Assembly: GCA_902801485.1 (NCBI GenBank)
Contig: CADCIP010000016.1
Location: forward strand, 30,314 to 94,313
Direction: 5' to 3'
Length of the DNA: 64,000 nt
Source: an uncultured Bacteroidales bacterium
GTDB taxonomy: Bacteria; Bacteroidota; Bacteroidia; Bacteroidales; Bacteroidaceae
The position numbers and the translations under genes were made by a program. Each line of letters begins with the position of its first letter. The stretch's first letter is position 1. Positions 4,698 through 45,471 of the stretch are shown here, piece after piece. The notes beneath the pieces are model-generated. The model was not told where the DNA came from, did no database searches, and was given only the letters and a program-made list of their open reading frames with translations.

Positions 4698-4725
4698 CCC
4701 CTCCTCCCCCAAATGGGAGGTGGGG
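4698..4725. repeat. Dispersed G/C palindrome, intergenic copy
   Basis: A C-rich arm CCCCTCCTCCCCC (4698-4710), an AAA spacer and TGGGAGGTGGGG (4714-4725) form an imperfect hairpin between GH92 and GH125. It belongs to the same family as the copies inside queA, asnS and rluB. CCCCTCTCCAACCCC precedes it, a flank also seen in abbreviated form at other copies. Confidence 0.75.
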
Positions 4726-4762
4726 AAAATTATTTAGAAACCAAAACCACAACACGAATATT

Positions 4763-6235
4763 ATGAATAGGAATAAGAAATTCTCCCCCACCGGGGGAGT
4801 CAGAGAGGGGCTCCTTCTTTTAACCATGTTGCTGGGTGCTCCCATAGTGGCAAACAGCGCCAATTTCTACGAGGCTCCTGAAAAAGCCAAGAAGCAGGAA
4901 GTGGCTGTACAGTCAACCATCAAGGACTTGCGTCCTGCTCCCGAGAAGCGTCTCTTCCGCAGCGAGGCTGTTGAAAAGCAGATTCTCGACCTCAAATCGA
5001 AGCTTACAGCCATCGACCCCAAACTCTACTGGATGTTTGTAAACTGCTTCCCCAACACATTGGATACAACCGTTTGGTACAGCAAGGAGAGCGGTGACGA
5101 TGACACCTTCGTTATCACTGGCGACATCGAGGCAATGTGGCTGCGTGACAGCGCTGCACAGGTATGGCCCTATCTGCGTTATGTCAAGCAGGACGAACCC
5201 CTGCGTCACCTTATCCGTGGCGTTATCCGCCGTCAGTTGGCCTGCATCCTCATCGATCCGTACGCCAACGCCTTCAATATAGGTCCCACCGGTGGAGAAT
5301 GGCAGTCAGACAATACCAAGATGAAGAAGGAACTGCACGAGCGTAAGTACGAGATTGACTCGCTCTGCTATCCCTTGCGTCTGGCTTACGCCTACTGGCA
5401 GCAGACAGGCGACACCAGCATCTTCGACGAGAAGTGGCTACAGGCCATCCGCGAGATTCTGCACGTCTTCCAAGACCAGCAGAACTGGAACGGTCCTATC
5501 ACCAACTACCGTTTCACCCGCAAGACAGAGGCTTTGCACGATACACGTTCCAACAGAGGTTACGGTCATCCCGGTAAACCTTGCGGACTGATTGCCAGTG
5601 CCTTCCGTCCCTCTGACGACAGTACCATCTTCCCCTATCTGGTTCCCAGCAACTTCTTTGCCGTAAGTGTATTGCGCAAGGCTGCTATCATCCTGAACGA
5701 TGTGAATAAGGAATACGGACTGGCCAGCGACTGCCGCCGTATGGCAACCCAGGTGGAAGAGGCTCTGGAGAAATATGCTGTTGTGGAGCATTCCAAGTAT
5801 GGCAAGATTTATGCCTTCGAGGTTGACGGCTATGGTTCTGCTCTTCTGATGGATGACTCCAATGCGCCCAGCCTGCTCTGTCTGCCTTATCTGACCGATG
5901 TGTCTATCGATGACCCCATCTACCAGAATACCCGTAAGTTTGTCTGGAGTGAGGATAATCCTTACTTCTTCAAGGGTAAGGCCGGTGAAGGTATCGGCGG
6001 TCCTCACTGCGGTCTGAACAAGCCTTGGCCTATGAGTCTGGTCATGAAAGCCTTCACTACCAACGACCGTGCCGAGAAGGAATGGTGCGTTCAGCAGATT
6101 CTGAAGACCGATGGTGACACAGGTTTCATGCATGAGTCTTTCAACAAGGACGATGCCAAGGACTTCACCCGTTCTTGGTTCGCATGGGCCAACACGCTGT
6201 TTGGCGAACTTATTGTTGATATGTACGCTCAGTAA
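4763..6235 (+). CDS. GH125 exo-alpha-1,6-mannosidase
   Basis: The 490-residue protein is a glycoside hydrolase family 125 (formerly DUF1237) enzyme, a family known for exo-alpha-1,6-mannosidase activity. Family hallmarks include GDIEAMWLRDSAAQVWPYL (about 119-137), the GLIASAFRPSDD stretch, and FMHESFNKDD...RSWFAWANTLFGEL at the end, which contains a likely catalytic glutamate. The N-terminus is a signal peptide with an odd n-region (KKFSPTGGVREG), because a dispersed palindrome lies inside the codons. The gene follows GH92 by 85 bases and abuts the next gene. Together, GH92 and GH125 would remove alpha-1,2- and alpha-1,6-linked mannose from high-mannose glycans or fungal mannan. No SusC/SusD pair is present in the window. 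Confidence 0.92.
   Translation: MNRNKKFSPTGGVREGLLLLTMLLGAPIVANSANFYEAPEKAKKQEVAVQSTIKDLRPAPEKRLFRSEAVEKQILDLKSKLTAIDPKLYWMFVNCFPNTLDTTVWYSKESGDDDTFVITGDIEAMWLRDSAAQVWPYLRYVKQDEPLRHLIRGVIRRQLACILIDPYANAFNIGPTGGEWQSDNTKMKKELHERKYEIDSLCYPLRLAYAYWQQTGDTSIFDEKWLQAIREILHVFQDQQNWNGPITNYRFTRKTEALHDTRSNRGYGHPGKPCGLIASAFRPSDDSTIFPYLVPSNFFAVSVLRKAAIILNDVNKEYGLASDCRRMATQVEEALEKYAVVEHSKYGKIYAFEVDGYGSALLMDDSNAPSLLCLPYLTDVSIDDPIYQNTRKFVWSEDNPYFFKGKAGEGIGGPHCGLNKPWPMSLVMKAFTTNDRAEKEWCVQQILKTDGDTGFMHESFNKDDAKDFTRSWFAWANTLFGELIVDMYAQ
4783..4799. repeat. Dispersed palindrome inside the GH125 signal peptide
   Basis: CTCCCCCACCGGGGGAG (17 bp) sits seven codons into the GH125 gene and is translated as part of SPTGGV. 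It is a member of the same palindrome family as the intergenic copy 85 bases upstream. Confidence 0.8.
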
Positions 6236-6244
6236 ATGATATTT

Positions 6245-8758
6245 ATGAGAAATCAGAAACATACCTTTTGGGGAGCCTTATCATTAGGGCTCCTCATGGT
6301 TTTTACGGTAGGGTGCAACAATCAGTCGGAACAGCAGGTGCAGGAGGCAATGGACTTCCTTTATGCCAGTATGCCCTTGCCCGATAGCGTGGATTATCCC
6401 CGTGAATTCTGGGAGGCAAATGTCAGGGCCACTTTAAAGGCCCGTCAGGAGATGCCTTGGGGCGAGAAGGTTCCCGAGCGCGAGTGGAAGCATTTTGTGC
6501 TTCCCCTGCGTGTCAATAACGAGAATCTGGACTCTGCCCGAATCGTTCTCTACGAAACCCTGAAGAACCGTGTAAAGGACAAGAATATGTACGATGCCGT
6601 TCTGGAGGTCAACCATTGGTGTCACGAGTTTGTCACATACGCTCCTTCCGACGGCCGTACCAAATCTCCCCTTGTTACCATGCGCTCCGCTACGGGTCGT
6701 TGCGGCGAGGAAAGCACGTTTACCGTTGCGGCACTCAGAGCTGTAGGCATTCCTGCCCGTCAGGTCTATACCCCACGCTGGGCGCATACCGATGACAACC
6801 ACGCTTGGGTAGAGGCTTGGGTAAACGGGCGCTGGTACTTCATGGGAGCCTGCGAACCCCTTCCCGTACTGAATATGGGTTGGTTCAACGAGCCCGCTTC
6901 CCGTGGTATGCTCATGCACACCAAGGTCTTTGGCAATTACAACGGACCCGAGGAAGTTGTGAGTCGCAACAATTGCTACACCGAGATTAACGTCACCAGC
7001 AACTATGCCGAGACAGATACCATCAATGTTAAGGTACTTAATGCCGAGGGTGCTCCGCTGCAGGATGCAAAGGTCGATTTCCGCCTGTACAACTATGCCG
7101 AGTTCTATACGCTGGTTTCCAAACAGTCCGATGCCAACGGACAGACTTGGTTGGGATGCGGCAAGGGTGACCTTGTTGTTTGGGTCAGCAAGGACGGATT
7201 GTTCGGTTTCGAGAAAGCCAGCGTAGGTCAGCAAGATACGGTAACGGTGGTAGTGGATAAGGACGACAGCTTTACGGGTGCATTTGACCTCGACCTTGTT
7301 CCTCCCGAATCTAAAGAGTACAAACCGGACCTCTCGGAGAGCCAGATACGGACAAACAGGCAACGTCTGCAGCGGGAAGACAGCCTGCGAAATGCTTATA
7401 TGGAGCAGACTTTCAGCAAGGAGGAAGACCTGAAGGACGCCCGTCAGAACTGGCAGGTAATAAAGGTATTCCAGTCTCACCATCTCGGCAAAGAGGTTAT
7501 CGCTACCTTACGGAAGAAGGACCTTTGCGATGTTTCTATGGAGGTACTGACTGATGCCGCTGATAACACGCCCTCGTCCGCTTCTCCCCTTTGGGAGCAG
7601 TATGTGCTGGCTCCACGTATCAGCAACGAGATGCTTACCCCTTACCGCAAAGTGCTGAGTCCTGTCTTTAAGGGTATGGAAGCTGCTGCTATTGCCCAAT
7701 GGGTGACAGACAGCATCAGCATAGACAATACACGCAATCCGCAGAAACTCTGCATGAGTCCCGAGGGTGTTTACCGCCATCGTACAACAGATGCCCACAG
7801 CCGCGATATCTTCTTTGTGGCTGCCTGCCGTAGTGCCGGTGTACCAGCCCGTATCGATGAGGTGACAGGTAAGGTGCAGATTTTGGCCTCACCCCAGCCC
7901 TCTCCTGTGGGAGAGGGAGAGCCAGAAGTCAAGGGGCAAGAGGTTTGGGTGGATGTCACCTTTGGTCAGGCCGTTCAGGAAACAGCGCCTCAGGGAACAC
8001 TCAGCCTTGCCTATTCCGATTTTGCCATCAAGGAGAATCCTTCTTATTATTCGCAATTCAGTCTCTCACGCCTTCAGAACGGGACCCTCGCCTTGCAGGA
8101 ATTCCCCGAGGAAGCCACCTGGAAAGATACCTTCGCCAATGGTGTGCAGATGGATGCAGGTCAGTATCTGCTGGTTTCAGGTACCCGTATGGCTGACGGT
8201 AGCGTACTGGCACATCTGGAGTTCTTTGGCCTGAAGGCTAATACAGCGCAGAAGCAAGTTCTCAAATTGCGCGACAATGCCGACGAATTGCGTGTGATAG
8301 GCAGCTTCAACTGCGAAAACTATTTCACCAACTACAAGGGAGTACACAAGACCTTGTTGGAGAGTACGGGCAGAGGTTATTATGTGGTAGCGCTGATTCG
8401 CGACAATCACGAACCCAGCACACATATTCTGCACGAATGCGAGGATGCCAACATCTACCTCTCCCAGTGGCCTCACCTCTTTGTCATGCTGTTCCCCACA
8501 CAGGAAGAGCTCCAGTCGTTCCGGTCACACCGCAAGGATTTCGACAGACTGCCCGACAACTTCATTTTCGGTGTAGCCGACCCGGAGACCATCGAGGCCA
8601 TGCACATTCAGGAACTCACACACGGCAGCCAGGAGTTACCTATCCTCATGATGGCCGACACCTTCAACCGCGTGGTTTGGTTCCATCAGGGATATACGAT
8701 AGGAATTGCAGATCAGATTATGAGTGTCATCCGACAGCTGACAATACACGAGAAATAG
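6245..8758 (+). CDS. Lipoprotein with two transglutaminase-like domains
   Basis: The 837-residue product begins with a lipoprotein signal (lipobox VFTVGC, Cys24). An ATG nine bases earlier, touching the GH125 stop, is also possible. Domain 1 (about 95-235) is a transglutaminase/protease-like fold with Cys153 in GRCGEE and His186 in DDNHAW. After a beta-sandwich-like middle part comes a second, similar segment (about 490-590) in which DAHSRDIFFVAACRSAGVPAR aligns with domain 1 but has Ala517 where Cys153 would be. The last 160 residues (LPILMMADTFNRVVWFHQGY) resemble a thioredoxin fold without CXXC. Such proteins accompany glycan-degrading loci in Bacteroidetes; the substrate is unknown. A palindrome copy lies inside domain 2. 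Its 3' end overlaps cutC on the other strand by 32 bases. Confidence 0.8.
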   Translation: MRNQKHTFWGALSLGLLMVFTVGCNNQSEQQVQEAMDFLYASMPLPDSVDYPREFWEANVRATLKARQEMPWGEKVPEREWKHFVLPLRVNNENLDSARIVLYETLKNRVKDKNMYDAVLEVNHWCHEFVTYAPSDGRTKSPLVTMRSATGRCGEESTFTVAALRAVGIPARQVYTPRWAHTDDNHAWVEAWVNGRWYFMGACEPLPVLNMGWFNEPASRGMLMHTKVFGNYNGPEEVVSRNNCYTEINVTSNYAETDTINVKVLNAEGAPLQDAKVDFRLYNYAEFYTLVSKQSDANGQTWLGCGKGDLVVWVSKDGLFGFEKASVGQQDTVTVVVDKDDSFTGAFDLDLVPPESKEYKPDLSESQIRTNRQRLQREDSLRNAYMEQTFSKEEDLKDARQNWQVIKVFQSHHLGKEVIATLRKKDLCDVSMEVLTDAADNTPSSASPLWEQYVLAPRISNEMLTPYRKVLSPVFKGMEAAAIAQWVTDSISIDNTRNPQKLCMSPEGVYRHRTTDAHSRDIFFVAACRSAGVPARIDEVTGKVQILASPQPSPVGEGEPEVKGQEVWVDVTFGQAVQETAPQGTLSLAYSDFAIKENPSYYSQFSLSRLQNGTLALQEFPEEATWKDTFANGVQMDAGQYLLVSGTRMADGSVLAHLEFFGLKANTAQKQVLKLRDNADELRVIGSFNCENYFTNYKGVHKTLLESTGRGYYVVALIRDNHEPSTHILHECEDANIYLSQWPHLFVMLFPTQEELQSFRSHRKDFDRLPDNFIFGVADPETIEAMHIQELTHGSQELPILMMADTFNRVVWFHQGYTIGIADQIMSVIRQLTIHEK
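7898..7916. repeat. Dispersed palindrome inside the transglutaminase-like gene
   Basis: CCCTCTCC-TGT-GGAGAGGG is translated within LASPQPSPVGEGEPE. It falls between the segment equivalent to the catalytic-Cys helix and the segment equivalent to the His strand of the second domain, in a likely surface loop. Confidence 0.8.
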
Positions 8759-9440
8759 TCTCGTGCACCATTACGGCATCGGTATGACCGTTCTTTCTAA
8801 GGGAGCCATGGATTTCTGTGGCTCCCGTTTCTATTATGATACGGGCAGCATTCTGGGGCGTCACACCTGCTCCCGGCATTATGCGGAAGTCACTTCCCCT
8901 AACGCCACAACCTTCCCGTGGTTCGAAGGTTTTGGTCTCAGCCACCAGTTCTCTCAGCAAACCGATTCCTTCTTCGGCCTTGGGAGCTAAGCCACTGGTT
9001 AGCAGACGGTCGCAACCCAGGGAATAGATTTCCAGCAACGATTCCTTAGGATTCTTGCACACATCAAAGGCACGATGGAAAGTAATGTGCATCCTGTCGC
9101 CTGCCGCTTCTACCATACGGTGGCAAGCCTGAATGTCTATGTCACCATTGGGTGTTAGCGCACCTATCACCACACCTTGGGCACCCAACTTACGAGCCAT
9201 CCCGATGTCGTAAATCATACAGTCCACCTCATCCTCGGAATACACAAAGTTGCCGCCACGGGGCCGGATAAGCACATGCGTGGTAATGCCGCTGTTCACA
9301 GCCAACTCTATCATGCCGGCCGATGGGGTAAGACCGTCCACATCAAGCGCCTGACACAACTCCACCCTGTGTGCGCCACCAGCTATTGCTGCACGCAGAC
9401 TGGGCAGGTCGGCACAACAAACTTCTAACTTAAAATCCAT
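8727..9440 (-). CDS. cutC: CutC family protein
   Basis: The 237-residue protein starts MDFKLEVCCADLPS and folds as a TIM barrel of the CutC family. RPRGGNFVYS, GVVIGALTPNGDID and ITFHRAFDV are family motifs. CutC was linked to copper homeostasis in E. coli, but its biochemical activity is still unsettled, so the name is by family only. I chose the ATG at 9440 because upstream codons would enter the promoter region; a TATTTTTG -7 element lies 22 bases before it. The gene is divergent from queA and its 3' end overlaps the transglutaminase-like gene by 32 bases on the opposite strand. Confidence 0.9.
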   Translation of the reverse strand: MDFKLEVCCADLPSLRAAIAGGAHRVELCQALDVDGLTPSAGMIELAVNSGITTHVLIRPRGGNFVYSEDEVDCMIYDIGMARKLGAQGVVIGALTPNGDIDIQACHRMVEAAGDRMHITFHRAFDVCKNPKESLLEIYSLGCDRLLTSGLAPKAEEGIGLLRELVAETKTFEPREGCGVRGSDFRIMPGAGVTPQNAARIIIETGATEIHGSLRKNGHTDAVMVHETISRVLSAVG

Positions 9441-9461
9441 GCTTTTTTTCTTTTTTGACTG

Positions 9462-9469
9462 CAAAAATA
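9462..9469 (-). promoter_or_regulatory. -7 element TATTTTTG for cutC
   Basis: On the minus strand TATTTTTG fits TAnnTTTG and lies 22 bases before the cutC ATG. It is packed back to back with the queA -7 element, so the two promoters share about 30 bp. Confidence 0.55.
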
Positions 9470-9482
9470 GCATTTTTATTTG

Positions 9483-9490
9483 TAATTTTG
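9483..9490 (+). promoter_or_regulatory. -7 element TAATTTTG for queA
   Basis: TAATTTTG fits TAnnTTTG and lies 16 bases before the queA ATG, giving a very short leader. A TTG lies upstream at 9456-9458, but at a longer spacing than usual. Confidence 0.6.
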
Positions 9491-9505
9491 CACAAAATTT
9501 GAAAA

Positions 9506-10821
<1,316 letters not shown>

Positions 10822-10825
<4 letters not shown>

Positions 10826-11337
10826 TAGCAGACGGAAAAGATAACAGTCAGGAGTTGTTCCCCGTTGTGGATGAGGAAGGCAATATCCTTTCAGCCGCCA
10901 CACGAGGCGAGTGTCATGGCGGCAGTATGTTGCTGCACCCCGTTGTACACCTTCATGTGTTTAATTCCCAAGGGGAGTTGTACCTTCAGAAACGTCCGGC
11001 TTGGAAAGATATCCAGCCCGACAAGTGGGATACAGCTGTTGGCGGACACGTAGATTTGGGCGAGAGTATTCATCAGGCACTCCTTCGCGAAGTGCGGGAG
11101 GAGTTGGGCATTACCGATTTCGAGCCGCAAGCCCTACCCCATTACGTCTTTCAGTCTGAACGCGAGCGTGAACTGGTCTTTCCCTTCCGCACTATATACG
11201 ATGGCGCCATCCATCCCAGTAAAGAGACAGACGGCGGTCGTTTCTGGTCTATCCCAGAGATAGAAGCCTCCTTAGGCAAAGACGTTTTCACCCCCAACTT
11301 CGAAAGCGAATACCAAAAGGTAATAAAGTCTCACTAA
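10822..11337 (+). CDS. NUDIX hydrolase (isopentenyl-diphosphate-isomerase-like type)
   Basis: The 171-residue protein has a complete NUDIX box at about residues 74-96: GGHVDLGESI... then REVREELGI, fitting GX5EX7REUXEEXGU. The order of segments (FPVVDEEGNILSAATRGE at the start, HLHVFNSQGELYLQKRP before the box) is that of the Idi/YfcD-like NUDIX group. These proteins hydrolyse nucleoside-diphosphate-linked compounds or isomerise isopentenyl diphosphate; the substrate cannot be read from the sequence. It overlaps the queA stop by four bases, so the two are co-translated. No further gene follows on this strand; GH106 converges on it from the right. Confidence 0.88.
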
Positions 11338-11399
11338 AAGTGTAGCAAGAACCTATCACTTCAGGTAGAGTTCAGAGCGTAGAGGTTAAAGCCAAAGAG

Positions 11400-14300
11400 T
11401 CATTTTACTGCTTTCTGAAGTTTAAGAATTGTTTTAACCTGGGGTTGTATGGTGACGGGACCCATTAAACCGGCTGGCTGTAATGGACTGTCGGCATTCC
11501 AATGCTTCCACGTTGCCGTACCTAACTTCTCCGCTTGGGGTTGCTCATCACCAATAAGCCGGTTGACCCAAGGATTGCTGACGGTTACTTCCAACAGGTT
11601 TTCGCCCGCTTGCGCTGCATCACCGATAAAGAGACGGTACGGAGCTTTCCATGCAGTTCCCAAAGAATGTCCATTAAGACGGACGGATGCTATGACACCT
11701 ACATTACCCAAATTGAGCTGCAGCTCTGTACCCTGCTGAAGATACTTCTTGGGAATATTAAATCGTTTGGTATATACAGCAGTACCGGCAAAGTAGCGGA
11801 TGCCAGGGACGGTTGACTTGCTAAAGGAATAAAGACTGTCGAACACAGCTGTTTCCGGAGCCATCCTTCCCGGTTGGAAGGTAACATCCCAGGATCCTGC
11901 CAGAGTAATCGGTTGGGGAACAGACTTCACGCGTGCACTGTAGACATTACCTGATGCCGTACGAACGGTTTGTGTACCTGACTTGGTAGTTGTCCAAACG
12001 AAGTTTTCGTCCTTGAGAACTAAGGTTCCATCATTGCCATGATAGGTAAAGTCCACCTGTGCACCTTCCCTGATTTCGCGTTCGACGACTATCCCTTCTG
12101 TCTCGTAGGTGAGGCGGAGTAATTTGTTCTGTCCATAGACGGGGGTGCCTGCCAGCTCGTCGTTTACAGAAAGGACATACTTACCCTCATCAATGCACTT
12201 CTGCAAGTTGCTGATGACATTAACAGGTTTCTGCGGACGCTGACTGTCGAAATTGGAAGGGATAGGACCGTAAAAAGCACGTGCCACCTTGAGTTCTCCC
12301 TTTTCGTGAGCCTCGGGTATCTGAATGCGTGCATTCTCGGGAGAATAGGCAGTAAGCTCTTTGCCATCCAGCGTATAGTGGATAACCAGTGTCTTGACCT
12401 GTCCGAAGCAGGGATCGCCACCCAGGGTTCCGTTGTCGCTCTGTATATCGAGTTTATTGTCGCGAACCTTGCCGGCAACCAAATCAGTTACATCATTGAT
12501 TCCATGCGGAAGGAAGGCTCCGTACTCGGCTCGGGTGATGGTGAGGTTAGGAACAGGAACTTCTCTGGCATCGTCGTAAAGGGTATTGACGTCAGTCACA
12601 CAGGCATCAGTCTCTGCAGAAGAAGGACGGAAGATGATGAAAGCGCTCTGTTCGGGTTCGAAGTGGAGGTCTACCAACGTTCCATATTCGCCCTTTCTGT
12701 AGGGAATAGCAGCAATCTGTCCCGTCTGGGCATCCCAGCGCTCGGGAACCATTCCCTGAACACGGAACTCGCAGGTCTCATTACGGTATTGTTTCTCGGG
12801 ATTAGCCACGAAATAGATTTCTCCCTCGGGACAGGAACGATGGATAAAGCGAAGGTCCTGTCCTGTGGTGCCGGGACGGAAATCAGGTTTAACCTGCAGT
12901 TTCTGTAAAGCCTCAGAAACAGTAATATCCTTGACTAACCCCTTATCCCATAATTCTTTAGCCAGTTGTTCTACCTGGTCATCACACGTGGGGTAATCCT
13001 CCAAACTGGGTGACTTGGCAGGACGGGGACCGATGATGGTTGCACCCTGAAGTGCCAACCGGTGAAGGATACGCAATGTCTTGGGTGTCATCCACGAGGT
13101 ATCGAACAGCGTAAGCAGACGATACTCACCGCCGCTACGGGTGATGAGCCGTCCGTTGCGCACCTGCAGCTGGGCCATCTGATCTGTCCATATCTCATCG
13201 TAGTCGTAGCCAAGGTCCTTAATGTCCTTGCGGCTGCAGCCGTCATTGGGCGATACCTCGCCTACATAGACTAACACGTCACCGACAAAACGTCCCTGTT
13301 GGAGCAAGTATTGCGAACGTGTTACATATTTCATATAAGGTATGGCAGCATCCCATAATGTGTTGAGCCGGTTAAAATGTGAGCCAAACTCTCCGAGTGT
13401 GTAACCGGGTCCTTTGTCATTCGGCTGATGAACGAAGGTGTGGAAGATATAGTGGTTGATACCATCGGTCCATGCCATATCACCCAATGCCTTCATTTTA
13501 GCAGGACTTCCGTCCCAACCGGCCTGGTCGCTTCCCGCGGTGAAGGATTCGGCACCTACTACAGTGTTTCCGTTGATATGGGCAATGGAAGCTGCCGTCT
13601 TGGTTGAGGAGGGCATAGCTACATTTCCCATCCAGAATTCACCCATTACAATATCAGAACTGGCACCGACTTCCATATCGTTGAATGGCCCTGTATAAGG
13701 CTCTACAGAGTATTTAAGTCCATTCTGGTGGCAAAGTTCACTGAACCGGTCGTAATAGTTGGCAGCCATCAGATCATTGACAGTCTTGCGCAGGTCCCAC
13801 AAGAAACGTTCGCTCTGCTCGCTGCTTCCTACATAGAAACCGGCTATAGCAGGGAAATACAATAGAGGGTTATAGCCACGCAGTCGCTGAAACTCCTGGT
13901 CGAAACCATCCGTCCAGTTTCCGCATCCTACTTCATAGCTATCCACCAGGCAATTGGTTAGAGCTGTACCAACCAACGGGCCCAAATAGTCCAGAATAGG
14001 TTGGACACCATCCTTCCAATACTGGTCGAGCGCCTTGCGACTCATCTTGTCCACCTCGAGTCCACCACCTGTGGCAGCCGTTGAGGGATGACTTTTCTCC
14101 CCTGTTGTGGTGTGACCCATACGAAGAACTATCCATTCTCCCACTGGCGCCTGCCAAGTAAGATTGCCGTCTGCATCCATCAGGTTGGTGAGGTTCTGAA
14201 TATCGGAAATTCTGACAACCTCCTCATCCTTCACGACCTCAGGCTTGGGCATTAGGATATTGGGATAGCTGTTGGAACCAAGGCTTTTGATTACATAATC

Positions 14301-14825
14301 AGTAATCTTGCGGTCGGAAATTGGCCGGGGGAAAGCCAGGACAACAATATCATTGTACCAGTCATGCTGTGCCTTAGGTTGCTCCAAACGTATAGTCTGT
14401 TTCTTGCCGGAACCCGTCAGATGCGTTTCTGTCCAGACAACACGCTGCATGCTTTGTTCCGGCTTCACCCAAAAACCGCCACTGCTGGACCAACCAGGAC
14501 CATTATGGAAGCATAGTTCCATACCCAAACGCTTTGCCTCGATAGCTGCCCATTTGAAGAGCTCAAGCCACTCAGATGAGAGATATTTGGCTGTACCTTC
14601 AGGGTAACCGTACCCTACATTGAAAATCTGGGCCTCGTGGTATCCTGCCCGACTCATAGCCTCCAGGTCGGCGGTAATACCTTCACGGGTTACATTACAA
14701 TCCAGCCAGTGCCACCATGTGCAGGGACGGCTTAGGGGAGAACCCTCGTTCCACTTTTCGAGGGACTGGGCACAAACGGTCATACAGACAGAAAGCAATA
14801 CGGAAAAGAGAACCTTTTTCTTCAT
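11400..14825 (-). CDS. GH106 alpha-L-rhamnosidase-like protein
   Basis: The 1141-residue protein has a signal peptide ending near CAQS and opens with RPCTWWHWLDCNVTREGI, followed by DLEAMSRAGYHEAQIFNVGY, which is typical of glycoside hydrolase family 106 (alpha-L-rhamnosidases acting on pectin side chains and other rhamnose glycans). The central VMGEFWMGN and VVGAESFTAG segments hold conserved glutamates that are candidate catalytic residues. The C-terminal 170 residues (VTFQPGRMAPE..., LNLGNVGVIASVRLNGH, LLEVTVSNPWVNRLIG) form a GH2-like galactose-binding beta-sandwich. It stands alone, with its own -7 element, so its partners for rhamnoside use are elsewhere. The exact linkage is unknown. 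Confidence 0.85.
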   Translation of the reverse strand: MKKKVLFSVLLSVCMTVCAQSLEKWNEGSPLSRPCTWWHWLDCNVTREGITADLEAMSRAGYHEAQIFNVGYGYPEGTAKYLSSEWLELFKWAAIEAKRLGMELCFHNGPGWSSSGGFWVKPEQSMQRVVWTETHLTGSGKKQTIRLEQPKAQHDWYNDIVVLAFPRPISDRKITDYVIKSLGSNSYPNILMPKPEVVKDEEVVRISDIQNLTNLMDADGNLTWQAPVGEWIVLRMGHTTTGEKSHPSTAATGGGLEVDKMSRKALDQYWKDGVQPILDYLGPLVGTALTNCLVDSYEVGCGNWTDGFDQEFQRLRGYNPLLYFPAIAGFYVGSSEQSERFLWDLRKTVNDLMAANYYDRFSELCHQNGLKYSVEPYTGPFNDMEVGASSDIVMGEFWMGNVAMPSSTKTAASIAHINGNTVVGAESFTAGSDQAGWDGSPAKMKALGDMAWTDGINHYIFHTFVHQPNDKGPGYTLGEFGSHFNRLNTLWDAAIPYMKYVTRSQYLLQQGRFVGDVLVYVGEVSPNDGCSRKDIKDLGYDYDEIWTDQMAQLQVRNGRLITRSGGEYRLLTLFDTSWMTPKTLRILHRLALQGATIIGPRPAKSPSLEDYPTCDDQVEQLAKELWDKGLVKDITVSEALQKLQVKPDFRPGTTGQDLRFIHRSCPEGEIYFVANPEKQYRNETCEFRVQGMVPERWDAQTGQIAAIPYRKGEYGTLVDLHFEPEQSAFIIFRPSSAETDACVTDVNTLYDDAREVPVPNLTITRAEYGAFLPHGINDVTDLVAGKVRDNKLDIQSDNGTLGGDPCFGQVKTLVIHYTLDGKELTAYSPENARIQIPEAHEKGELKVARAFYGPIPSNFDSQRPQKPVNVISNLQKCIDEGKYVLSVNDELAGTPVYGQNKLLRLTYETEGIVVEREIREGAQVDFTYHGNDGTLVLKDENFVWTTTKSGTQTVRTASGNVYSARVKSVPQPITLAGSWDVTFQPGRMAPETAVFDSLYSFSKSTVPGIRYFAGTAVYTKRFNIPKKYLQQGTELQLNLGNVGVIASVRLNGHSLGTAWKAPYRLFIGDAAQAGENLLEVTVSNPWVNRLIGDEQPQAEKLGTATWKHWNADSPLQPAGLMGPVTIQPQVKTILKLQKAVK

Positions 14826-14855
14826 AATAAAAACAATATGATATGATTAATACTG

Positions 14856-14863
14856 CAAAAATA
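14856..14863 (-). promoter_or_regulatory. -7 element TATTTTTG for GH106
   Basis: On the minus strand TATTTTTG fits TAnnTTTG and lies 31 bases before the GH106 ATG, in an AT-rich gap. Confidence 0.5.
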
Positions 14864-14945
14864 CTGTATTAACGCCTTTGCGCCTTTAAATAATTGACAT
14901 TTTGGCTACACAAAATGACATAAGGCACTTAGACCAACAAGTCAG

Positions 14946-16238
14946 TTAATCAGCTAAAGTGAAGGGAGTGGTATATGTTGTGCGAATACGCCACTGATCG
15001 GGATATAAATTATTGATGCGATTACCAACACACTTGCCAGGACCAAGGACATAGCCTTTATAACAGAGCAGGACCATCCCCCTTGGTGCCGGAACCCGGA
15101 CGGCTTCACGACGTAGATATTGCAGAGCCTCGTTGTAATTGAGTTCCACGCGAGGGGTGTCTGGGTCTGTAGTGAAGGCGGGAGGAAGGACATTGAGAGT
15201 GCAGCCTCTTCTACCCCCTCCCAAGGAGGTAAAAACATCCTCAAGACGACCTAATCCTTCACCCCTCCTTGGGAGGGGACGGGGGAGGCTTGTTTTTCGG
15301 ATGGCGGCACAATAGAAGCCTTCTCCCCTATCGCGACCGGGCAGAAAATGACGTTCCTCCAAGAGTTCACCTCCAAGGGTATCGCAAATCCAACGGACAT
15401 TGTCTTCGTCCTCGAAATGGTTGAAGGTACAGGTGCTGTAGATAAGCAGAGCGCCGGGCTTGAGCACATGCCAGATGTCGTGCATAATCTCGCGCTGACG
15501 CTGCCAGCAGCGTTCAACATTCTCAAGGTTCCAATCCTTTATGGCTACCTCGTCCTTACGGAACATCCCCTCACCAGAGCAGGGTACATCGGTCACCAAC
15601 AAATCAAAAGTATCAGAGAAAGCAGCAAAATCGGCAGGATAGTTCTGTGTTACAAAACAGCGGACCGGATATTCTCCTTCTGCCATGCGTGTCCATTTCT
15701 GTATATTCTCTGATAGCACCTGTGCCCGTTTGGGCATGGGCTCATTGCAGACAAGCACAGAACCTTCGGGCAATATACCCGCTAACAAAGTACTTTTGCC
15801 GCCAGGGGCAGCACAAAGGTCTAAAGCAACAAGGGGAGCCCCCTCCCCGCTCCCCCTTTGGGGGAGTGAACATTGACAGTTGACAGTTGCCTGTTGGCTA
15901 TTTGAATCATGAATCATGAAACTTGGATCCTGAATCATATACTTGCGGAGGAGTTCCGCAATGTACATGGAGGAAGCTTCCTGCACGTAATAGGCACCAG
16001 CATGTAGCAGGGGATCGAAGGTGAAAGCCGGACGGTCGCTCAGATAATAGGCATCGGGGCACCAAGGCACAGCCTCCGCGCGTACATTATTATTTATAAT
16101 AAGGGACTTTCCCTTGCGAGGATTCAGTCGGACAGAAACTTCAGGCTCTGTTTCCATAAGGGCATGGCACAAGGAGCCTGCAGTATCATTACCATACTGC
16201 TCTTGCATCATACGGACAAAATCCTGCGGCAACTGCAT
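14946..16238 (-). CDS. rRNA (cytosine-C5) methyltransferase, NOL1/NOP2/Sun family
   Basis: This 430-residue enzyme resembles RsmF-type rRNA m5C methyltransferases. It has the AdoMet-binding ALDLCAAPGGKSTLLAG, the catalytic-cysteine motif VTDVPCSGEGMFRKD and the second cysteine motif IYSTCTFNHFEDEDNV. The C-terminal part (YNEALQYLRREAVRVPAPRG...) is the usual RNA-binding extension. Two segments are repeat-derived: about residues 111-135 just before the AdoMet motif (IHDSNSQQATVNCQCSLPQRGSGEG region) and about 314-345 (LPRPLPRRGEG...SLGGGRRG). Both keep the frame and fall between conserved blocks. It starts two bases after thyA stops, so thyA and this gene are one transcript, behind folA. Confidence 0.88.
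   Translation of the reverse strand: MQLPQDFVRMMQEQYGNDTAGSLCHALMETEPEVSVRLNPRKGKSLIINNNVRAEAVPWCPDAYYLSDRPAFTFDPLLHAGAYYVQEASSMYIAELLRKYMIQDPSFMIHDSNSQQATVNCQCSLPQRGSGEGAPLVALDLCAAPGGKSTLLAGILPEGSVLVCNEPMPKRAQVLSENIQKWTRMAEGEYPVRCFVTQNYPADFAAFSDTFDLLVTDVPCSGEGMFRKDEVAIKDWNLENVERCWQRQREIMHDIWHVLKPGALLIYSTCTFNHFEDEDNVRWICDTLGGELLEERHFLPGRDRGEGFYCAAIRKTSLPRPLPRRGEGLGRLEDVFTSLGGGRRGCTLNVLPPAFTTDPDTPRVELNYNEALQYLRREAVRVPAPRGMVLLCYKGYVLGPGKCVGNRINNLYPDQWRIRTTYTTPFTLAD
15212..15285. repeat. Two palindrome copies inside the rRNA methyltransferase gene
   Basis: A first copy (CCCCCTCCCAAGGAGG, about 15213-15228) and a second (CCCCTCCTTGGGAGGGG, about 15262-15278, with an extra GACGGGGGAGG) lie about 50 bp apart. 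On the coding strand they give LPRPLPRRGEG and SLGGGRRG. Confidence 0.75.
15850..15866. repeat. Dispersed palindrome with flanking short repeats inside the methyltransferase gene
   Basis: The perfect core CTCCCCCTTTGGGGGAG is followed (15873-15945) by duplicated ACAGTTG and GAATCAT words. Together they encode an insert directly before the AdoMet-binding motif. The same 17-bp core occurs at 45072-45088 in rluB. Confidence 0.85.
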
Positions 16239-16240
16239 CC

Positions 16241-17038
16241 TTATACACTTACCACGCCTTTAATGGCGGGCCACGGGTCGTAATCCTGAAGTTGGAAGTC
16301 TTCGTACTTAAAGTCGAAGATATTCTTCACCTCTGGATTGATAATCATCTTGGGCAGTTTGCGAGGCTCACGACTGAGTTGCAGATGAACCTGATCCAAA
16401 TGATTAAGATAGATATGCGTGTCGCCTGTAGTATGGATGAACTCGCCTGGTTTCAGCCCACAAACCTGAGCCATCATCATACAGAGGAGGGCATACGAGG
16501 CTATATTAAAGGGAACACCCAGGAAACAATCGGCACTGCGCTGATAAAGCTGTAGGCTGAGTTTCCCGTCTGCTACATAGAACTGGAAGAAAGCATGGCA
16601 GGGCGGCAGATTCATATTCTTCAGGTCGGCCACATTCCAGGAACTGACGATTATACGACGACAATTAGGATCTTTCTTAATGGTATCAACAGCCTGCTGA
16701 ATCTGATCGATGAAACCTCCGTCATAATCGGGCCATGAACGCCACTGGTAGCCGTAGATATGTCCTAAGTCGCCTGTCTCGGGATCTGCCCACTCGTTCC
16801 AGATACGAACGCCTCGTTCTTGCAGCCAACGGGCATTTGTATTCCCTTGCAAGAACCAGAGCAATTCGTAGATAATACTCTTGAGATGTACCTTCTTGGT
16901 GGTGAGAAGGGGGAAGCCCTCCTCCAAATTGAAACGCATCTGATGTCCGAAAATACTGATGGTACCCGTTCCTGTACGGTCTTCTTTCTTGTGTCCCTCA
17001 TCAAGGATACGTTGTAATAGGTCGAGATATTGTTTCAT
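16241..17038 (-). CDS. thyA: Thymidylate synthase
   Basis: The 265-residue protein has the full ThyA layout: an N-terminal [18 protein letters not shown], the catalytic [13 protein letters not shown] with Cys147, and the C-terminal nucleotide/folate-binding segments. It converts dUMP to dTMP with methylene-tetrahydrofolate and yields dihydrofolate, which the neighbouring FolA recycles. The length equals the usual 264. folA lies 52 bases upstream on the same strand and probably shares its promoter; the rRNA methyltransferase follows after two bases. Confidence 0.97.
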
Positions 17039-20126: not shown

Positions 20127-20202
20127 TTTGTGTTTGTTTAAATTGATTAATGTTATTACTTTTTTTACTTAAAATTATTTTCGTTTGGTATCGGTTTGTC
20201 AT

Positions 20203-20334
20203 TTATCTCCTGCGGAGAGACGGGGATTCGCGAAGGCTTTCTGCCTTTCTGGCTTTGAACCCCGTTTTATCTCCTGCGGAGAGACGGGGATTCGCGAAGG
20301 CTTTCTGCCTTTCTGGCTTTGAACCCCGTTTTAT
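20203..20334. repeat. 64-bp tandem repeat copied from the tRNA-Ser 3' end
   Basis: Two complete 64-bp units begin TTATCTCCTGCGGAGAGACG, with CTCC at 20207, 20271 and 20335 (the third inside the tRNA region). Each unit holds the acceptor strand and half of the T arm of the adjacent tRNA-Ser (GGAGAGACGGGGATTCG), then a block of about 27 bases (CGAAGGCTTTCTGCCTTTCT and on), then the other T-arm half (GAACCCCG). In the true tRNA the two T-arm halves are joined directly. The repeats therefore look like tRNA 3' ends with an insert at the T loop, in tandem. Confidence 0.9.
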
Positions 20335-20340
20335 CTCCTG

Positions 20341-20428
20341 CGGAGAGACGGGGATTCGAACCCCGGATACGCTTTTGACGTATACACGCTTTCCAGGCGT
20401 GCCTCTTCAGCCACTCGAGCATCTCTCC
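20341..20428 (-). tRNA. tRNA-Ser (GGA)
   Basis: On the minus strand this folds as a class II tRNA: acceptor GGAGAGA/TCTCTCC, a D arm with CTCGAGTGGCTGAAGAG, anticodon stem CACGC/GCGTG with loop CTGGAAA (anticodon GGA, reading UCC/UCU), a long variable arm TATACG/CGTATC, and T arm GGGGTTCGAATCCCC. The discriminator base is G, as in tRNA-Ser. CCA is not encoded. The 3' end continues into the tandem repeat that copies part of the tRNA. Confidence 0.96.
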
Positions 20429-40309: not shown

Positions 40310-40313
40310 CAGC

Positions 40314-41853: not shown

Positions 41854-42153
41854 ATGGACAGGCAGCAAATGATAGAGAAGATAGTCGAGTACTTCAAGAC
41901 TCAACCCGTCCTGAAAGCATGGCTTTTTGGCTCCTACTCTCGTGGTGAGGAACGTGCTGACAGCGATGTGGACATCTTGGTTACGCTTGATCAAGAGGCG
42001 AATGTAGGTCTGTTCAAATTGAGTGGAATGCATCTTGATTTACAGGATTTACTTCAGAAACCAGTTGATCTTGTTACAGACAAAGGCTTAATGCCTTTTG
42101 CTCGTCCGAGTGTAGAACGCGGCAGAAAATTAATATATGAGAGAACCGCTTAG
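41854..42153 (+). CDS. MNT-type nucleotidyltransferase (HEPN/MNT antitoxin)
   Basis: The 99-residue protein is a minimal nucleotidyltransferase with the GSYSRGEERADSDVDILV motif (Gly26-Ser27, Asp38, Asp40). In HEPN/MNT modules this protein is the antitoxin that modifies the HEPN RNase partner, for example by AMP addition to its Tyr. The gene looks intact. The overlapping downstream HEPN gene is broken, so the module is no longer functional as a pair. The prmC-recX operon lies upstream; the module is an isolated accessory insert. Confidence 0.87.
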   Translation: MDRQQMIEKIVEYFKTQPVLKAWLFGSYSRGEERADSDVDILVTLDQEANVGLFKLSGMHLDLQDLLQKPVDLVTDKGLMPFARPSVERGRKLIYERTA

Positions 42154-42308
42154 AGAGAAGGCACGTCAAACATATCTTAGATGCAATCAACAGGTTACAG
42201 ACTCATGCAGGATATTTGTCTAAGAGTCCTATATTTGATCTTAGTGGTCGAAGAGTTTCTGTACCAATGCAAAAAGGTATTTTCATTATTAACAGAAAAA
42301 AGTTATGA
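42137..42308 (+). pseudogene. HEPN toxin remnant, frameshifted, with T9SS-CTD-like tail
   Basis: An ATG at 42137, overlapping the MNT gene by 17 bases, starts MREPLREKAR, the usual opening of MNT-associated HEPN proteins. The reading then has to shift by one base near 42168 to continue as KHILDAINRLQTHAGYLSK, also HEPN-like. After that, HEPN sequence stops and SPIFDLSGRRV, then PMQKGIFIINRKKL, follows up to a TGA at 42306-42308. That end resembles the C-terminal sorting domain of T9SS cargo. About three quarters of a HEPN protein is missing. It appears to be a deletion fusion plus a frameshift. Confidence 0.7.
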
Positions 42309-42355
42309 TTGAGTAAATACCTTTTATAATCATAGCTTTCACCAACATTAAATAA

Positions 42356-42400
42356 AGTATCCGCTGTGCTGTAAACATTTGGCGTCAGCGGATACTTTTT
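42356..42400 (+). terminator. Rho-independent terminator after the MNT/HEPN locus
   Basis: AGTATCCGCTG (42356-42366) pairs perfectly with CAGCGGATACT (42386-42396), with a 19-base loop, followed by a T-run (42396-42400). Confidence 0.75.
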
Positions 42401-42503
42401 CTACTTGTTTTGTGATATCCAGTTATAGAAAAGTGGCTTGCCCTCCTATTCCTAACGGGGTTCCTTTGCTGTCAGCCACTTCCACGCCGGCACCACGGGT
42501 ATT

Positions 42504-42540
42504 CCAACCTCCGTGCCCTCCTCTTGGGAGGGGTTGGAGG
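42504..42540. repeat. Dispersed palindrome, intergenic copy
   Basis: CCAACC...GGTTGG outer arms enclose CCCTCC...GGGAGGGG inner arms. This is a longer variant of the palindrome family found in genes of this window. Confidence 0.75.
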
Positions 42541-42594
42541 CAGGCCAACATTAGACAATAGAAATCGTTTTTGGATCCTATAACAAGACATAAA

Positions 42595-42629
42595 ACAGAG
42601 GACATAACCTTAGGGGCTATGTCCTCTGT
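42595..42629 (-). terminator. Terminator after asnS
   Basis: ACAGAGGACATA (42595-42606) pairs with TATGTCCTCTGT (42618-42629), with an 11-base loop. On the minus strand TTTTATG follows, so it is a moderate terminator about 20 bases after the asnS stop. Confidence 0.7.
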
Positions 42630-42649
42630 GTAATTTATCAGAATGTAAA

Positions 42650-44116
42650 TTAAAATTCTGCGTTCTTGGGAGTACGGGGGAAGGGGATGACATCACGGAT
42701 GTTCTGCATACCGGTTACGAAGAGTATCAGACGTTCGAAACCGAGGCCGAAACCTGCATGGGGGCAGCTTCCGTACTTGCGGGTATCAAGATACCACCAC
42801 AAATGGGTCATATCCATCTTACGACGCTCTATCTCTGCCATCAGCTTGTCATAGCTTGCCTCACGGACAGAACCGCCTATAATCTCGCCGATAGAGGGGA
42901 AAAGAACATCGGTGCCCTGCATAGTAGGACCAGGTGCTACGCAACCTTTGTAACCTACAGAACCGCCTTCGGGCGTTGCAGGGTTCTGCTTCATATAGAA
43001 TGACTTGATAGCTGTGGGATAGTCGGTCATGATGACAGGCTTCTTGAAATGCTCCTCTACCAGGTAGCGCTCATGCTCAGAGGCTAAGTCGTCGCCCCAG
43101 TTGCAGGGGAACTCGAACTTCTTACCGTTCTTGATGGCTTCCTGCAGGATGTTGATACCCTCGGTGTAGGGCAGACGAACGAAGTTGTCCTTCAGTACAC
43201 CCTCGAGACGAGGAATCAAATCCTGATTTGGGGTAATAAACTTGTTGTTGTTGATAAATTCCAGGTCGTCCTTGCATTTCTCTAATGCCCAGCGCACGCA
43301 GTATTTGATGAAGTCTTCTTCCAAGTCCATCAACTCTTCCTGGTCAAGAAAAGCAACCTCAGGCTCTATCATCCAGAACTCTGCCAAATGACGCGGGGTA
43401 TTGCTGTTTTCGGCACGGAAGGTAGGACCGAAGGTGTAAATGGCACCCAGCGCAGTTGCTCCTAACTCGCCTTCCAACTGACCAGATACGGTAAGAGAGG
43501 TCTGCTCGCCAAAGAAATCATCGTCGTAGATAATCTTTCCCTGCTCGTCCTTCTTCAGGTCGTAAAGGTTCTTGGTGGTTACCTGGAACATATTTCCTGC
43601 ACCCTCGCAGTCGGAGGCTGTGATAAGGGGCGTGTGGAAATAGAAGTATCCGTGCTCATGGAAATAAGTATGGATGGCCATTGCCATATTGTGGCGGATA
43701 CGCAGGATGGCGCCAAAGAGGTTGGTGCGGGGACGCAGATGAGCCACGGTGCGAAGATATTCCATAGAAGCACCTTTCTTCTGCAGAGGATAGGTGTTAT
43801 CACAATCGCCTAAAATCTCTATGGCTGTTGCCTGAATTTCACTGGCCTGACCGGCTGCGGGACTTTCAACCAACTTGCCTTCGACACTGATGCAGGCACC
43901 TGTGGTGATACGTTTGATGGTCTCCTCGGGAAAGTTGGCCTCGTCGCCTACAATCTGTACGCTTTTGACGGTGCTACCATCGTTCAGGGCTATAAAGAAT
44001 ATACCCTTGGAACCACGCTTAGAGCGCACCCAACCCTTTACACAAATGGAAGCCTCCTCGCTCCCCCCCTGGGGGAGTGCCATGTTGAGGACATCTATTA
44101 TTTTTGTTCTTTTCAT
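42650..44116 (-). CDS. asnS: Asparaginyl-tRNA synthetase
   Basis: The 488-residue class II synthetase charges tRNA-Asn. It has an OB-fold start ([23 protein letters not shown]), motif 2 ([20 protein letters not shown]) and motif 3 ([15 protein letters not shown]). Two features are odd. The N-terminus ([14 protein letters not shown]) is partly translated palindrome, and near residue 370 [20 protein letters not shown] stands between MKQN and GTDVLFP, where I recall only about six residues in the E. coli enzyme. Both are in frame and outside the catalytic motifs. It stands between the palindrome-rich gap and rluB. Confidence 0.95.
44061..44076. repeat. Dispersed palindrome inside asnS
   Basis: CTCCCCCCCTGGGGGAG-type palindrome, translated as LPQGGS at residues 14-19 of AsnRS. 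Confidence 0.8.
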
Positions 44117-44151
44117 CTTGCTTTCTGTTTATTCTTATTTCGATAATTCCA

Positions 44152-44169
44152 CTCCCCTAGGGGGGGGGG
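44152..44169. repeat. Dispersed palindrome between rluB and asnS
   Basis: CTCCCCTAGGGGGGGGGA, an imperfect copy ending about 13 bases after the rluB stop (minus strand). A GACGGAGAGGG flank follows. Confidence 0.7.
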
Positions 44170-44181
44170 ACGGAGAGGGTC

Positions 44182-45471
44182 TTATTCAAACGCTCCCATG
44201 CGCAGCATGTTCACTTCCTGCTCTGTGAGGAAGCGCCAGTCGCCACGACGAACATTCTTCTTGGTAAGACCGGCAAAGAATACACGGTCCAACTTGATTA
44301 CCTTATAACCCAGACTTTCGAAGATACGGCGTACAATACGGTTTCGTCCGCTGTGAATCTCGATGCCTACCTGCTTGTGGTCTGTTTCGCTGGCATACTC
44401 GATGGCATCAGCATGAATTTCGCCATCCTCCAACTGGATGCCCTCGGCAATCATGCGCATGTCGGCAGCGGTAACATTTTTATTAAGGTACACATGATAA
44501 ATTTTCTTCTTCATAAACTGAGGATGGGTAAGCTTGCTGGCCAACTCGCCATCGTTGGTAAGCAGGAGCACACCCGTTGTGTTGCGGTCCAGGCGACCAA
44601 CGGGATAGATACGCTCGCGACAAGCACCCTTAACAAGATCCATAACGGTCTTGCGGTTCTGCGGGTCATCGCTGGTAGTAACATAATCCTTGGGTTTGTT
44701 CAGGAGAATATAAACCTTCTTCTCTATGCTTACCAACTGGTCGTGGAACAACACGGAATCTGAACGCTTAACCTTGGTACCCAACTCGGTAACGACCTGA
44801 CCGTTCACCTTTACTACGCCAGCTTCGATGAAGGTATCTGCCTCACGACGACTGCATACGCCGGCGTTGGCAAGAAATTTATTCAGACGGATTGGTTCAT
44901 CGGGATCTATGTGAGTCTCCTTGTACTCAATCTGCTTTTTCATGCTGTACTTGGCATTCGGATTGTAACCGCCTGTGCGGGGGCGCATACCGGGTCTTCC
45001 ACCCTTAGGAGCGTAGCCTGAACCAGCAACACGATTATAACCGCCTGTGCGGGGACGGAAGCCCCCTCTATCTCCCCCTTTGGGGGAGTATCCTTCGCCG
45101 CCTGCATTATAGCGGGGACGGGGCTGATAGCCTCCCTCGCGGGGCTGACGGGACTGATAACCGCCTTCTTCACCTGCATTATAGCGGGGACGGGGCTGAT
45201 AGCCTCCCTCGCGGGACTGACGGGGCTGATAGCCGCCTTCGCCACCTGCATTATAGCGAGGACGGGGCTGATAAGGTCTGCTGACCTGACCCTCTGAATT
45301 GCTGCTGAATGCTGGGCGGTTGATACGCGGACGCAAAGTACGTCCCTGAGCGTTATATCTAGGGGGATAATTGTTTTCACTTCCATAATGCTGAGGGCGG
45401 TAACCATCGCGGCCTTCACTCTCACTCTTCTCGGAGAACTTTTCTCTCCAGCTTTCGTCTTCTGTAATCAT
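44182..45471 (-). CDS. rluB: 23S rRNA pseudouridine synthase (RluB-like) with Arg/Gly-rich tail
   Basis: The last 240 residues are a classic S4-domain pseudouridine synthase: IRLNKFLANAGVCSRREADTF (S4), then YPVGRLDRNTTGVLLLTNDG with the catalytic Asp, then SGRNRIVRRIFESLGYKV. The target is probably U2605 of 23S rRNA. The first 190 residues are low complexity (Gly, Arg, Tyr, Pro, Gln), with the motif EGGYQPRPRYNAG in a 24-residue repeat present three times. Such a tail suggests RNA binding or phase behaviour, but this is inference. One palindrome copy lies in it (GYSPKGGDRGG). The core is normal length, the tail is the addition. Confidence 0.9.
   Translation of the reverse strand: MITEDESWREKFSEKSESEGRDGYRPQHYGSENNYPPRYNAQGRTLRPRINRPAFSSNSEGQVSRPYQPRPRYNAGGEGGYQPRQSREGGYQPRPRYNAGEEGGYQSRQPREGGYQPRPRYNAGGEGYSPKGGDRGGFRPRTGGYNRVAGSGYAPKGGRPGMRPRTGGYNPNAKYSMKKQIEYKETHIDPDEPIRLNKFLANAGVCSRREADTFIEAGVVKVNGQVVTELGTKVKRSDSVLFHDQLVSIEKKVYILLNKPKDYVTTSDDPQNRKTVMDLVKGACRERIYPVGRLDRNTTGVLLLTNDGELASKLTHPQFMKKKIYHVYLNKNVTAADMRMIAEGIQLEDGEIHADAIEYASETDHKQVGIEIHSGRNRIVRRIFESLGYKVIKLDRVFFAGLTKKNVRRGDWRFLTEQEVNMLRMGAFE
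45072..45088. repeat. Dispersed palindrome inside rluB
   Basis: The perfect 17-bp core CTCCCCCTTTGGGGGAG, identical to that at 15850-15866, is translated as YSPKGG in the low-complexity tail of RluB. Confidence 0.88.
45101..45316. repeat. 72-bp tandem repeat in rluB
   Basis: The word CCTGCATTATAGCG starts at 45101, 45173 and 45245, so the period is 72 bp (24 codons). The unit encodes the Arg/Gly/Tyr-rich tail of RluB. Copy-number change would keep the frame. Confidence 0.85.

Follow-up and report, generated by a model that had tools for sequence, protein, structure and literature searches.

How do short GC-rich palindromes come to lie, in frame, inside conserved bacterial genes? The question is raised by a 64 kb stretch of DNA (hereafter the window) from an uncultured Bacteroidales bacterium of the Bacteroidaceae (GenBank assembly GCA_902801485.1, contig CADCIP010000016.1, positions 30,314 to 94,313), in which an initial annotation had noted at least eleven palindromes of 17-28 bp, several of them within genes, and had read them as one family. 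We report that these palindromes belong to at least four families and that one of them, F1, is an asymmetric unit which in relatives often occurs as an inverted doublet. The best reading of our data is that F1 is an untagged, non-autonomous element family resembling dimers of repetitive extragenic palindromic (REP) sequences, and that its copies in genes survive at places where the protein can bear them. More surprising is the finding that, from one species to another, a given protein loop can be occupied by different repeats. Repeats lying in frame within working genes constitute a natural experiment in how proteins gain segments, and a single genus of uncultured Prevotella-like bacteria in which the same loops carry different repeats, or are unfilled, allows insertion, replacement and tolerance to be followed directly. 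Moreover, F1 raises again a question posed by the CGTC REPs and the Rickettsia palindromic elements, i.e. how hairpin repeats lacking their own transposase are moved.

Genomes, loci and family names

The window is part of a draft genome of 3.6 Mb (85 contigs, 85% complete), referred to as G000; other G numbers denote further genomes and L numbers fetched loci. On the basis of AsnS, most of its closest named relatives are uncultured bacteria of the ruminant gut that bear the label Prevotella or Bacteroidaceae. The family names F1, F2, F3 and F4 were coined here from separate recurrence in relatives of window positions 2000-17000, while the protein names MiaB, RhlE and RmlD were read by eye from protein motifs. 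Genic copies in G000 were counted in a set of 71 distinct F1- or F4-type sites in 65 stretches of that genome, which omits eight genome matches with 3 mismatches, the queA copy of the window included. The 21 doublet loci are a sample from the matches listed, mostly from G027. Codon scoring, which was used to assign frames, picked the correct frame in 94 of 124 test segments.

Repeat families and structure of F1

Allowing up to 3 mismatches, the core CTCCCCCTTTGGGGGAG gave 10 strand-hits at 6 sites in the window (0.09 expected); throughout the draft genome it gave 91 strand-hits, including 8 exact sites, compared with 3 for the reversed pattern. The repetition is thus far above chance, as the initial annotation had supposed, and the idea of an element withstands the comparison with base composition. 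Its reading of the eleven copies as a single family was rejected because they fall into at least four families (F1-F4), each of which recurs separately in relatives; the other copies that it meant do not match the core and are visible as palindromes near the positions or genes that it named.

The F1 consensus, AGCCCCCTCCCCGCTCCCCCTTTGGGGGAGTGC (43 units from 21 fetched loci), is 33 nucleotides (nt) long and asymmetric, and does not fit the 17-28 bp palindrome first proposed. Its conservation has a sharp edge on the arm side and drops beyond 33 nt on the other side, and the sequence outside is variable. All six frames of the consensus are free of stop codons, and it folds into a hairpin that has a stem of 9 bp and an unpaired arm (-16.9 kcal/mol, z -2.9). 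Many F1 copies in relatives are inverted doublets with the arms outward and a gap of 20-82 nt, most commonly 34-36 and 45 nt. This form was printed for 20 of 20 fetched loci, which had been preselected as +/- pairs among the matches listed, and single units also exist. One such doublet folds with -69.4 kcal/mol versus -39.2 for shuffled sequences (z -8.2).

Distribution of F1 among genomes

F1 is confined to the genus in the samples searched. Specifically, F1-like units with up to 3 mismatches are present in 21 of 61 genomes, corresponding to 21 of the 37 within the genus and none of the 24 outside it, and the reversed F1 pattern has no match in the same 61 genomes. In an even draw of 393 genomes from the order, units with up to 2 mismatches were detected in one genome, the window's own. 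Carriage by phages or plasmids was considered and rejected, with no exact match to the F1 pattern in viral contigs and none to the 34-nt F1 consensus, a short query, in plasmids.

Genic copies and the reading frame

The open reading frames (ORFs) around the genic copies of the window remain open, in keeping with the claim that these copies keep the frame. Eight of the eleven copies first noted in the window are genic, but such a predominance is not seen among the sites scanned outside it. Among the 71 sites, 31 lie inside a coding-scored ORF of at least 100 amino acids (22 of them with at least 20 residues on each side), and at 14 one and the same frame is open and shows coding signal to the left and right of the repeat; the remainder show signal on one strand in different frames (3), on different strands (1), on one side only (30) or on neither side (23). 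Genic copies are therefore a minority in this mixed F1/F4 set. A Pfam scan of 20 of the 22 ORFs placed the element inside a domain in, among others, glutamate synthase (central domain), glutaminase A (DUF5127) and a CbiA-type protein, and between or beside domains in other scanned ORFs; 3 of the 20 had no Pfam match.

For the doublets, 9 of the 21 loci are in frame with a good coding score on both sides, 4 are in frame with a weaker score and 8 have no shared frame, and when orthologous loci, grouped by hand, are counted once the doublets are in frame at 9 of 16 sites. The hosts of in-frame doublets include a Radical_SAM protein (which reads as MiaB), a DEAD-box helicase, phosphomethylpyrimidine kinase, a NANM protein, methionine synthase, an ArsP_1 permease, a protein reading as RmlD, one protein without a Pfam match and a ketoacyl synthase, in which the doublet sits between the two domains. 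In-frame insertion in unrelated protein genes is seen here as in the Rickettsia palindromic elements, which Ogata in 2000 is said to have found in frame in unrelated genes. In a model of AsnS of modest quality (mean predicted local distance difference test score, pLDDT, 64), of which only the N-terminal part was used, the inserted residues are predicted, with low confidence, as coil located after the first helix and before the OB-fold. Judged from the sequences, the inserts appear to add short peptides at tolerant loops without breaking the frame.

Orthologues and shared loops

For asnS, queA, the transglutaminase-like gene and RsmF there are orthologues that lack the insert. Together with the restriction to one genus in the samples searched, these insert-free orthologues at the same sites bear out the proposed likeness to Rickettsia palindromic elements and to REP-like insertion, and the idea of insertion is well supported. 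In asnS the loop is short and conserved in 20 of 23 parsed genus members (23 of 30 loci were parsed), and in G000, G030 and G031 it holds a repeat-derived segment that is five residues longer, in the latter two an F1 unit at the same place. The initial annotation had asked whether distant orthologues carry the same segments in different codons; the asnS segment is missing in 25 of 25 named relatives printed, and a looser core pattern run over 80 named asnS loci gave two single matches, neither of them F1-like.

Of the 19 queA orthologues printed, 14 have a short loop; in G071 the loop carries an F1 unit in the opposite orientation, and in G076, G005 and G036 it contains other GC-rich dyads (by eye). 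At the site of a second queA array (10526) there is (TCAAAAT)n in G069, a palindrome pair in G071 and no repeat in G077 and G084. The RsmF loop has F1 plus heptamers in the window and heptamer arrays without F1 in G071 and G069, and is short in most others, with no F1 unit in the 19 other RsmF orthologues printed. An F2 pair in the same gene is common to G000, G071 and G069, is better kept in the latter two, and was not seen in G077 and G084. The F3 unit of the transglutaminase-like gene is common to G071, and a 27-nt gap at the site in G069 is the clearest empty-site gap. In the DEAD-box helicase (RhlE) an F1 doublet is common to G027, G020 and G036; G013 and G033 have other palindrome pairs at this loop (by eye; a script flagged one), and most others have plain loops. 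In MetH and RmlD, heptamer arrays, some of them in inverted pairs (by eye), stand where others have F1 doublets.

Over five loops, 18 of 115 parsed cases (of 150) carry F1, another GC palindrome or a heptamer array versus 13 of 1093 equal-length control segments. These loops were chosen because of G000 or G027. When the six cases that prompted the choice (G000 in four loops, G027 and G036 in RhlE) are removed manually, the comparison is 12 of 109 versus 13 of 1093 (p=3e-7), the cases being species of one genus and hence not independent. A search for empty sites at five sites in up to nine genomes found other fillers in most relatives, and insertion and replacement are for this reason indistinguishable there.

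Two side observations concern these loops. In the transglutaminase-like gene of G071 (L253), an apparent second F1-like palindrome, GGCACTCGCCCAAAGGAGGAGCGGGGA, lies approximately 60 nt past the shared F3 unit. The peptide GNRGIVAIGELCDGGQ occurs both in the helicase loop of G000 (L393) and in an unrelated ORF of G069 (L275), and a further in-frame repeat family may therefore exist.

Among exact short tandem arrays of the genus loci, those with period 7 are the most frequent (4.6 per 100 kb), followed by period 14 (3.4); period 7 also leads in other Bacteroidales (2.1 per 100 kb). Cyanobacterial short tandemly repeated repetitive (STRR) sequences are likewise tandem repeats of period 7; the heptamer arrays here occupy the same protein loops as the palindromes, sometimes as inverted pairs (by eye). 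Period-7 arrays are near 7 of the 71 F1/F4-type sites versus 38 of 1420 random positions (p=0.004). This enrichment is modest and may stem from nothing more than tolerant places common to both.

Inheritance and spread of F1

Nine ortholog pairs, not all of them independent, were compared (a tenth gave no result): 497 of 540 positions are identical in the arms, 253 of 297 in the spacer and 1716 of 2011 in the flanks. The spacer diverges like the flanks and most shared copies therefore look inherited with their genes; for several, descent with the gene is what we see.

As to how copies arose, we lean, with some reserve, towards F1 being a REP-like mobile element with a survival filter acting on its genic copies. 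The unit is a hairpin, its stem up to 9 bp long, with a GC-rich arm on one side only, and two inverted units, arms outward, separated by a spacer of 20-82 nt, form an element of about 80-142 bp. This element would spread as a folded single strand that is cut and joined in trans by an HUH-type enzyme, which would be absent from the genomes examined or unlinked to F1. Landing is assumed to be largely blind. Because the consensus is free of stop codons in six frames, genic copies could survive; those that keep the frame in loops, linkers and termini would be retained and others removed by selection. Single units, as in the window, may represent single insertions or remnants of doublets.

Several observations weigh against this reading. 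Movement of F1 is deduced, and few sites are unambiguously empty; the native residues of the loops in AsnS, RmlD, QueA and RhlE give the impression of having been replaced and not merely interrupted. The arms are more conserved than the spacer and flanks, which is unexpected under plain neutral decay, albeit that the pattern search favours conserved arms. The MetH doublets of G012 and G027 (L079 263-358 and L064) are identical at 95 of 96 positions versus 193 of 240 in the flanks (p=1e-6); this is not explained by simple vertical descent and suggests recent transfer or conversion of the filler between the two species. The degenerate queA copy of the window folds barely better than shuffled sequences (z -1.3). 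With respect to a mover, a full F1 unit (up to 5 substitutions) was found at none of 28 Y1 loci of the genus, in drafts that are 61-97% complete and with other transposase classes not searched for, and only four of the nine genomes having at least 8 F1 copies gave a Y1 match.

These 28 loci comprise the two of G000 and 26 others from the genus. Y1-type genes are present in 22 of 61 genus genomes, 17 of them over the cut-off. A REP-associated tyrosine transposase (RAYT) had been suggested as the missing mover, and the draft genome does contain two Y1-type genes, both below the NCBIfam cut-off for REP-associated transposase; neither has F1 nearby and they were rejected as movers of F1. Eight of the 28 loci show no more than a loose core match. 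The automatic parse was applied to 10 of the 28; it located no gene in L037-L041 and probably used a wrong frame in L043. The F1 clusters of G069 and the F2 clusters of G071 contain, as judged by eye from ORF starts alone, ordinary genes only and no candidate mover. With no full F1 unit at the 28 Y1 loci, an HUH-type mover acting in trans is therefore possible but lacks linkage support, and an HUH/RAYT-type mover in particular is a tentative proposal that we think is probably wrong.

Y1-type genes flanked by repeats other than F1 do occur in the genus. In G000 a RAYT-like gene (L031 1105-1902) is bracketed by the inverted pair GGGACGGG..CCTGTTTC (by eye), and its protein fits, also by eye, the NH[LIV]H and YIH[QN]NP signature of a TnpAREP subclass that PMC6006769 describes as dominated by Bacteroidetes and as having atypical structures. 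In G032 a Y1-type gene (L059 1311-2105) has the 24-nt hairpin CAGGCGAATTTCGAAATTCGCCTG on both sides, in a REPtron-like arrangement.

A broader proposal takes the loops as its starting point: a limited set of core-enzyme loops might be shared landing sites that are rewritten repeatedly, with unrelated GC palindromes, inverted heptamer arrays and plain loops succeeding one another at identical codons, perhaps via one route which recognises hairpins or single strands and replaces the target, with no transposase of its own and no target duplication. We put this forward as speculation, and would not expect it to be correct.

Exchangeable loop cassettes are a rather improbable alternative, in which conserved flanks recombine between species and swap the filler, with no need for a transposition event in every gene. 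G012 and G024, which are close to each other (93% identity over the asnS region), have different fillers in MetH and RmlD; those of G012 are common to G027 and the MetH filler of G024 is common to G005, as such exchange would predict. The identity of the MetH doublets far above that of their flanks and the replaced appearance of native loops point in the same direction. However, recombination of this kind leaves the arrival of F1 at dozens of unrelated sites unexplained, at other shared sites the spacer diverges about as the flanks do, and copies outside recognised ORFs are common.

Alternatively, F1 might be a miniature inverted-repeat transposable element (MITE) of a cut-and-paste (DDE) insertion sequence with 30-nt terminal inverted repeats, and doublets with near-perfect inverted ends and a spacer have the appearance of one. 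Yet at the ends of the 21 doublets there is no target site duplication, i.e. no direct repeat of 2 nt or more; direct repeats measure 0 nt at 16 and 1 nt at 5 of the 21, no more than at random positions. To our knowledge, REPINs are without target duplication. In addition, single units are common and no candidate mover gene was visible by eye between the copies in the fetched clusters, and we find a DDE origin very unlikely.

There is similarly little to recommend the view that F1 consists of functional RNA or DNA hairpins which selection has placed or retained for a role in mRNA stability, in pausing or in nucleoid binding. Strong hairpin folds and arms more conserved than the flanks would suit such a role, but the distribution is patchy between related species, the in-frame positions are in unrelated proteins, and in an Rfam scan of the window tRNA alone reached the gathering score. 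Ordinary low-complexity protein linkers with GC-rich codons, which is exactly what a palindrome-like stretch at 7581 proved to be (coding sequence common to relatives, not clearly counted in the initial annotation), have virtually no chance of explaining F1, since the same DNA occurs in several frames, in both orientations and outside ORFs, and the shuffled and reversed controls, which F1 exceeds, refute this reading.

Comparison with known repeats

F1, best read as an untagged REP-dimer-like family, can be compared with known REPs. PMC3733652 describes GTAG and CGTC REPs, inverted dimers, copies inside genes including Rickettsia elements, CGTC REPs without a transposase, and different REPs at about the same recB site in two Xanthomonas species. 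REP dimers inside genes being on record there, a REP-like element in coding sequence is not as unusual as had been held. According to the same text the CGTC REPs, including the Rickettsia palindromic elements RPE-4 and RPE-6, are like F1 in being short palindromes mostly in inverted dimers, also inside genes; no transposase is associated with them, and for F1 none is linked among the Y1-type genes, the sole class searched, in drafts. F1 differs in its one-sided GC-rich arm, its host genus and its sequence, and no CGTC, TGTC or CCTC tag stands directly at the foot of its stem; the four bases before the 9-bp stem are TCCC, and a CCTC further out in the arm overlaps them. REPINs and GTAG REPs with RAYT, as presented in PMC3733652 and PMC6006769, share with F1 two inverted hairpin units and a spacer, whereas F1 is without the GTAG foot (GTAG is absent from the consensus of 43 units) and without an F1-flanked Y1 gene in the 28 loci. 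As F1 has neither the GTAG nor the CGTC tag and no linked RAYT, we assign it to neither REP family.

The Rickettsia palindromic elements, as covered by the review PMC10969869, are likewise palindromes in frame in unrelated genes, and by analogy F1 may work as they do; the likeness drawn here is one of behaviour. In the present genus the same loops are used by several families, and heptamer arrays are involved as well. REPs in frame are, as such, already on record. The term "intragenic" is absent from PMC12306157, and we found no description of such repeats in Prevotella-like genomes among the open-licence papers listed.

Copies in the window and neighbouring repeats

Four of the window palindromes (at 4783, 9733, 42510 and 44150) are degenerate and were assigned to families by eye. 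An F4 unit (4679..4720, + strand) lies between GH92 and GH125 and has 0 substitutions to the consensus, which was taken from this copy; its hairpin core, CCTCCCATTTGGGGGAG, has 13 exact sites listed in the G000 genome, and the aligned place is without a palindrome in G069 and has a different one in G071. A degenerate F1 unit (4783..4812, -) follows in the N-terminal (signal peptide) codons of GH125, and this N-terminus is different and short in G071 and G069. The F3 unit of the transglutaminase-like gene (7887..7917, +), from which the F3 consensus was taken, encodes SPQPSPVGEGE. In queA a degenerate F1 unit (9733..9762, +) encodes TLSSSPFRGR and adjoins a (CAACTCT)n array of period 7 with 4.7 copies (9778..9810, +), and a tandem-repeat scan revealed the second heptamer array of this gene at 10526..10561 (+).

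The RsmF-like rRNA methyltransferase gene has one F2 inverted doublet, with its left arm at 15202..15231 (+; 8 substitutions) and its right arm at 15262..15291 (-), and an F1 unit with the exact consensus at 15837..15868 (+), which encodes SLPQRGSGEGA on the minus strand and adjoins an (AACTGTC)n heptamer tract (15872..15895, -). Downstream of asnS an intergenic F2-like palindrome (42510..42541, -) was recognised by eye and is missed by the F2 pattern at 9 substitutions. Within asnS, an F1 unit with 7 substitutions (44048..44079, +) encodes 11 residues on the minus strand. The rluB-asnS spacer holds a degenerate F1-like palindrome (44150..44181, -), and in other species this spacer has different short-period repeats or none. 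An F1 unit with 8 substitutions in the Gly/Arg-rich part of rluB (45059..45090, +) encodes YSPKGGDRGGF. Next to it, 72-bp tandem repeats (45092-45307) encode part of the Gly/Arg-rich N-terminal region of rluB, the length and repeats of which vary much among relatives.

Two further repeats were noted in the window. An A-T rich tandem repeat (AAAAGAAAAACGGCTTTTCTTTTGCTTTTC...TTCGTAACTTTG) at 2150-2470 is read into the N-terminus of the GH92 ORF; similar stretches are listed by the dozen in four relatives, and its end has what we take to be the look of a Bacteroidetes promoter. Behind a tRNA-Ser gene (20340-20428), in the region 20202-20428, lie 64-bp units in tandem that partially duplicate the end of this gene.

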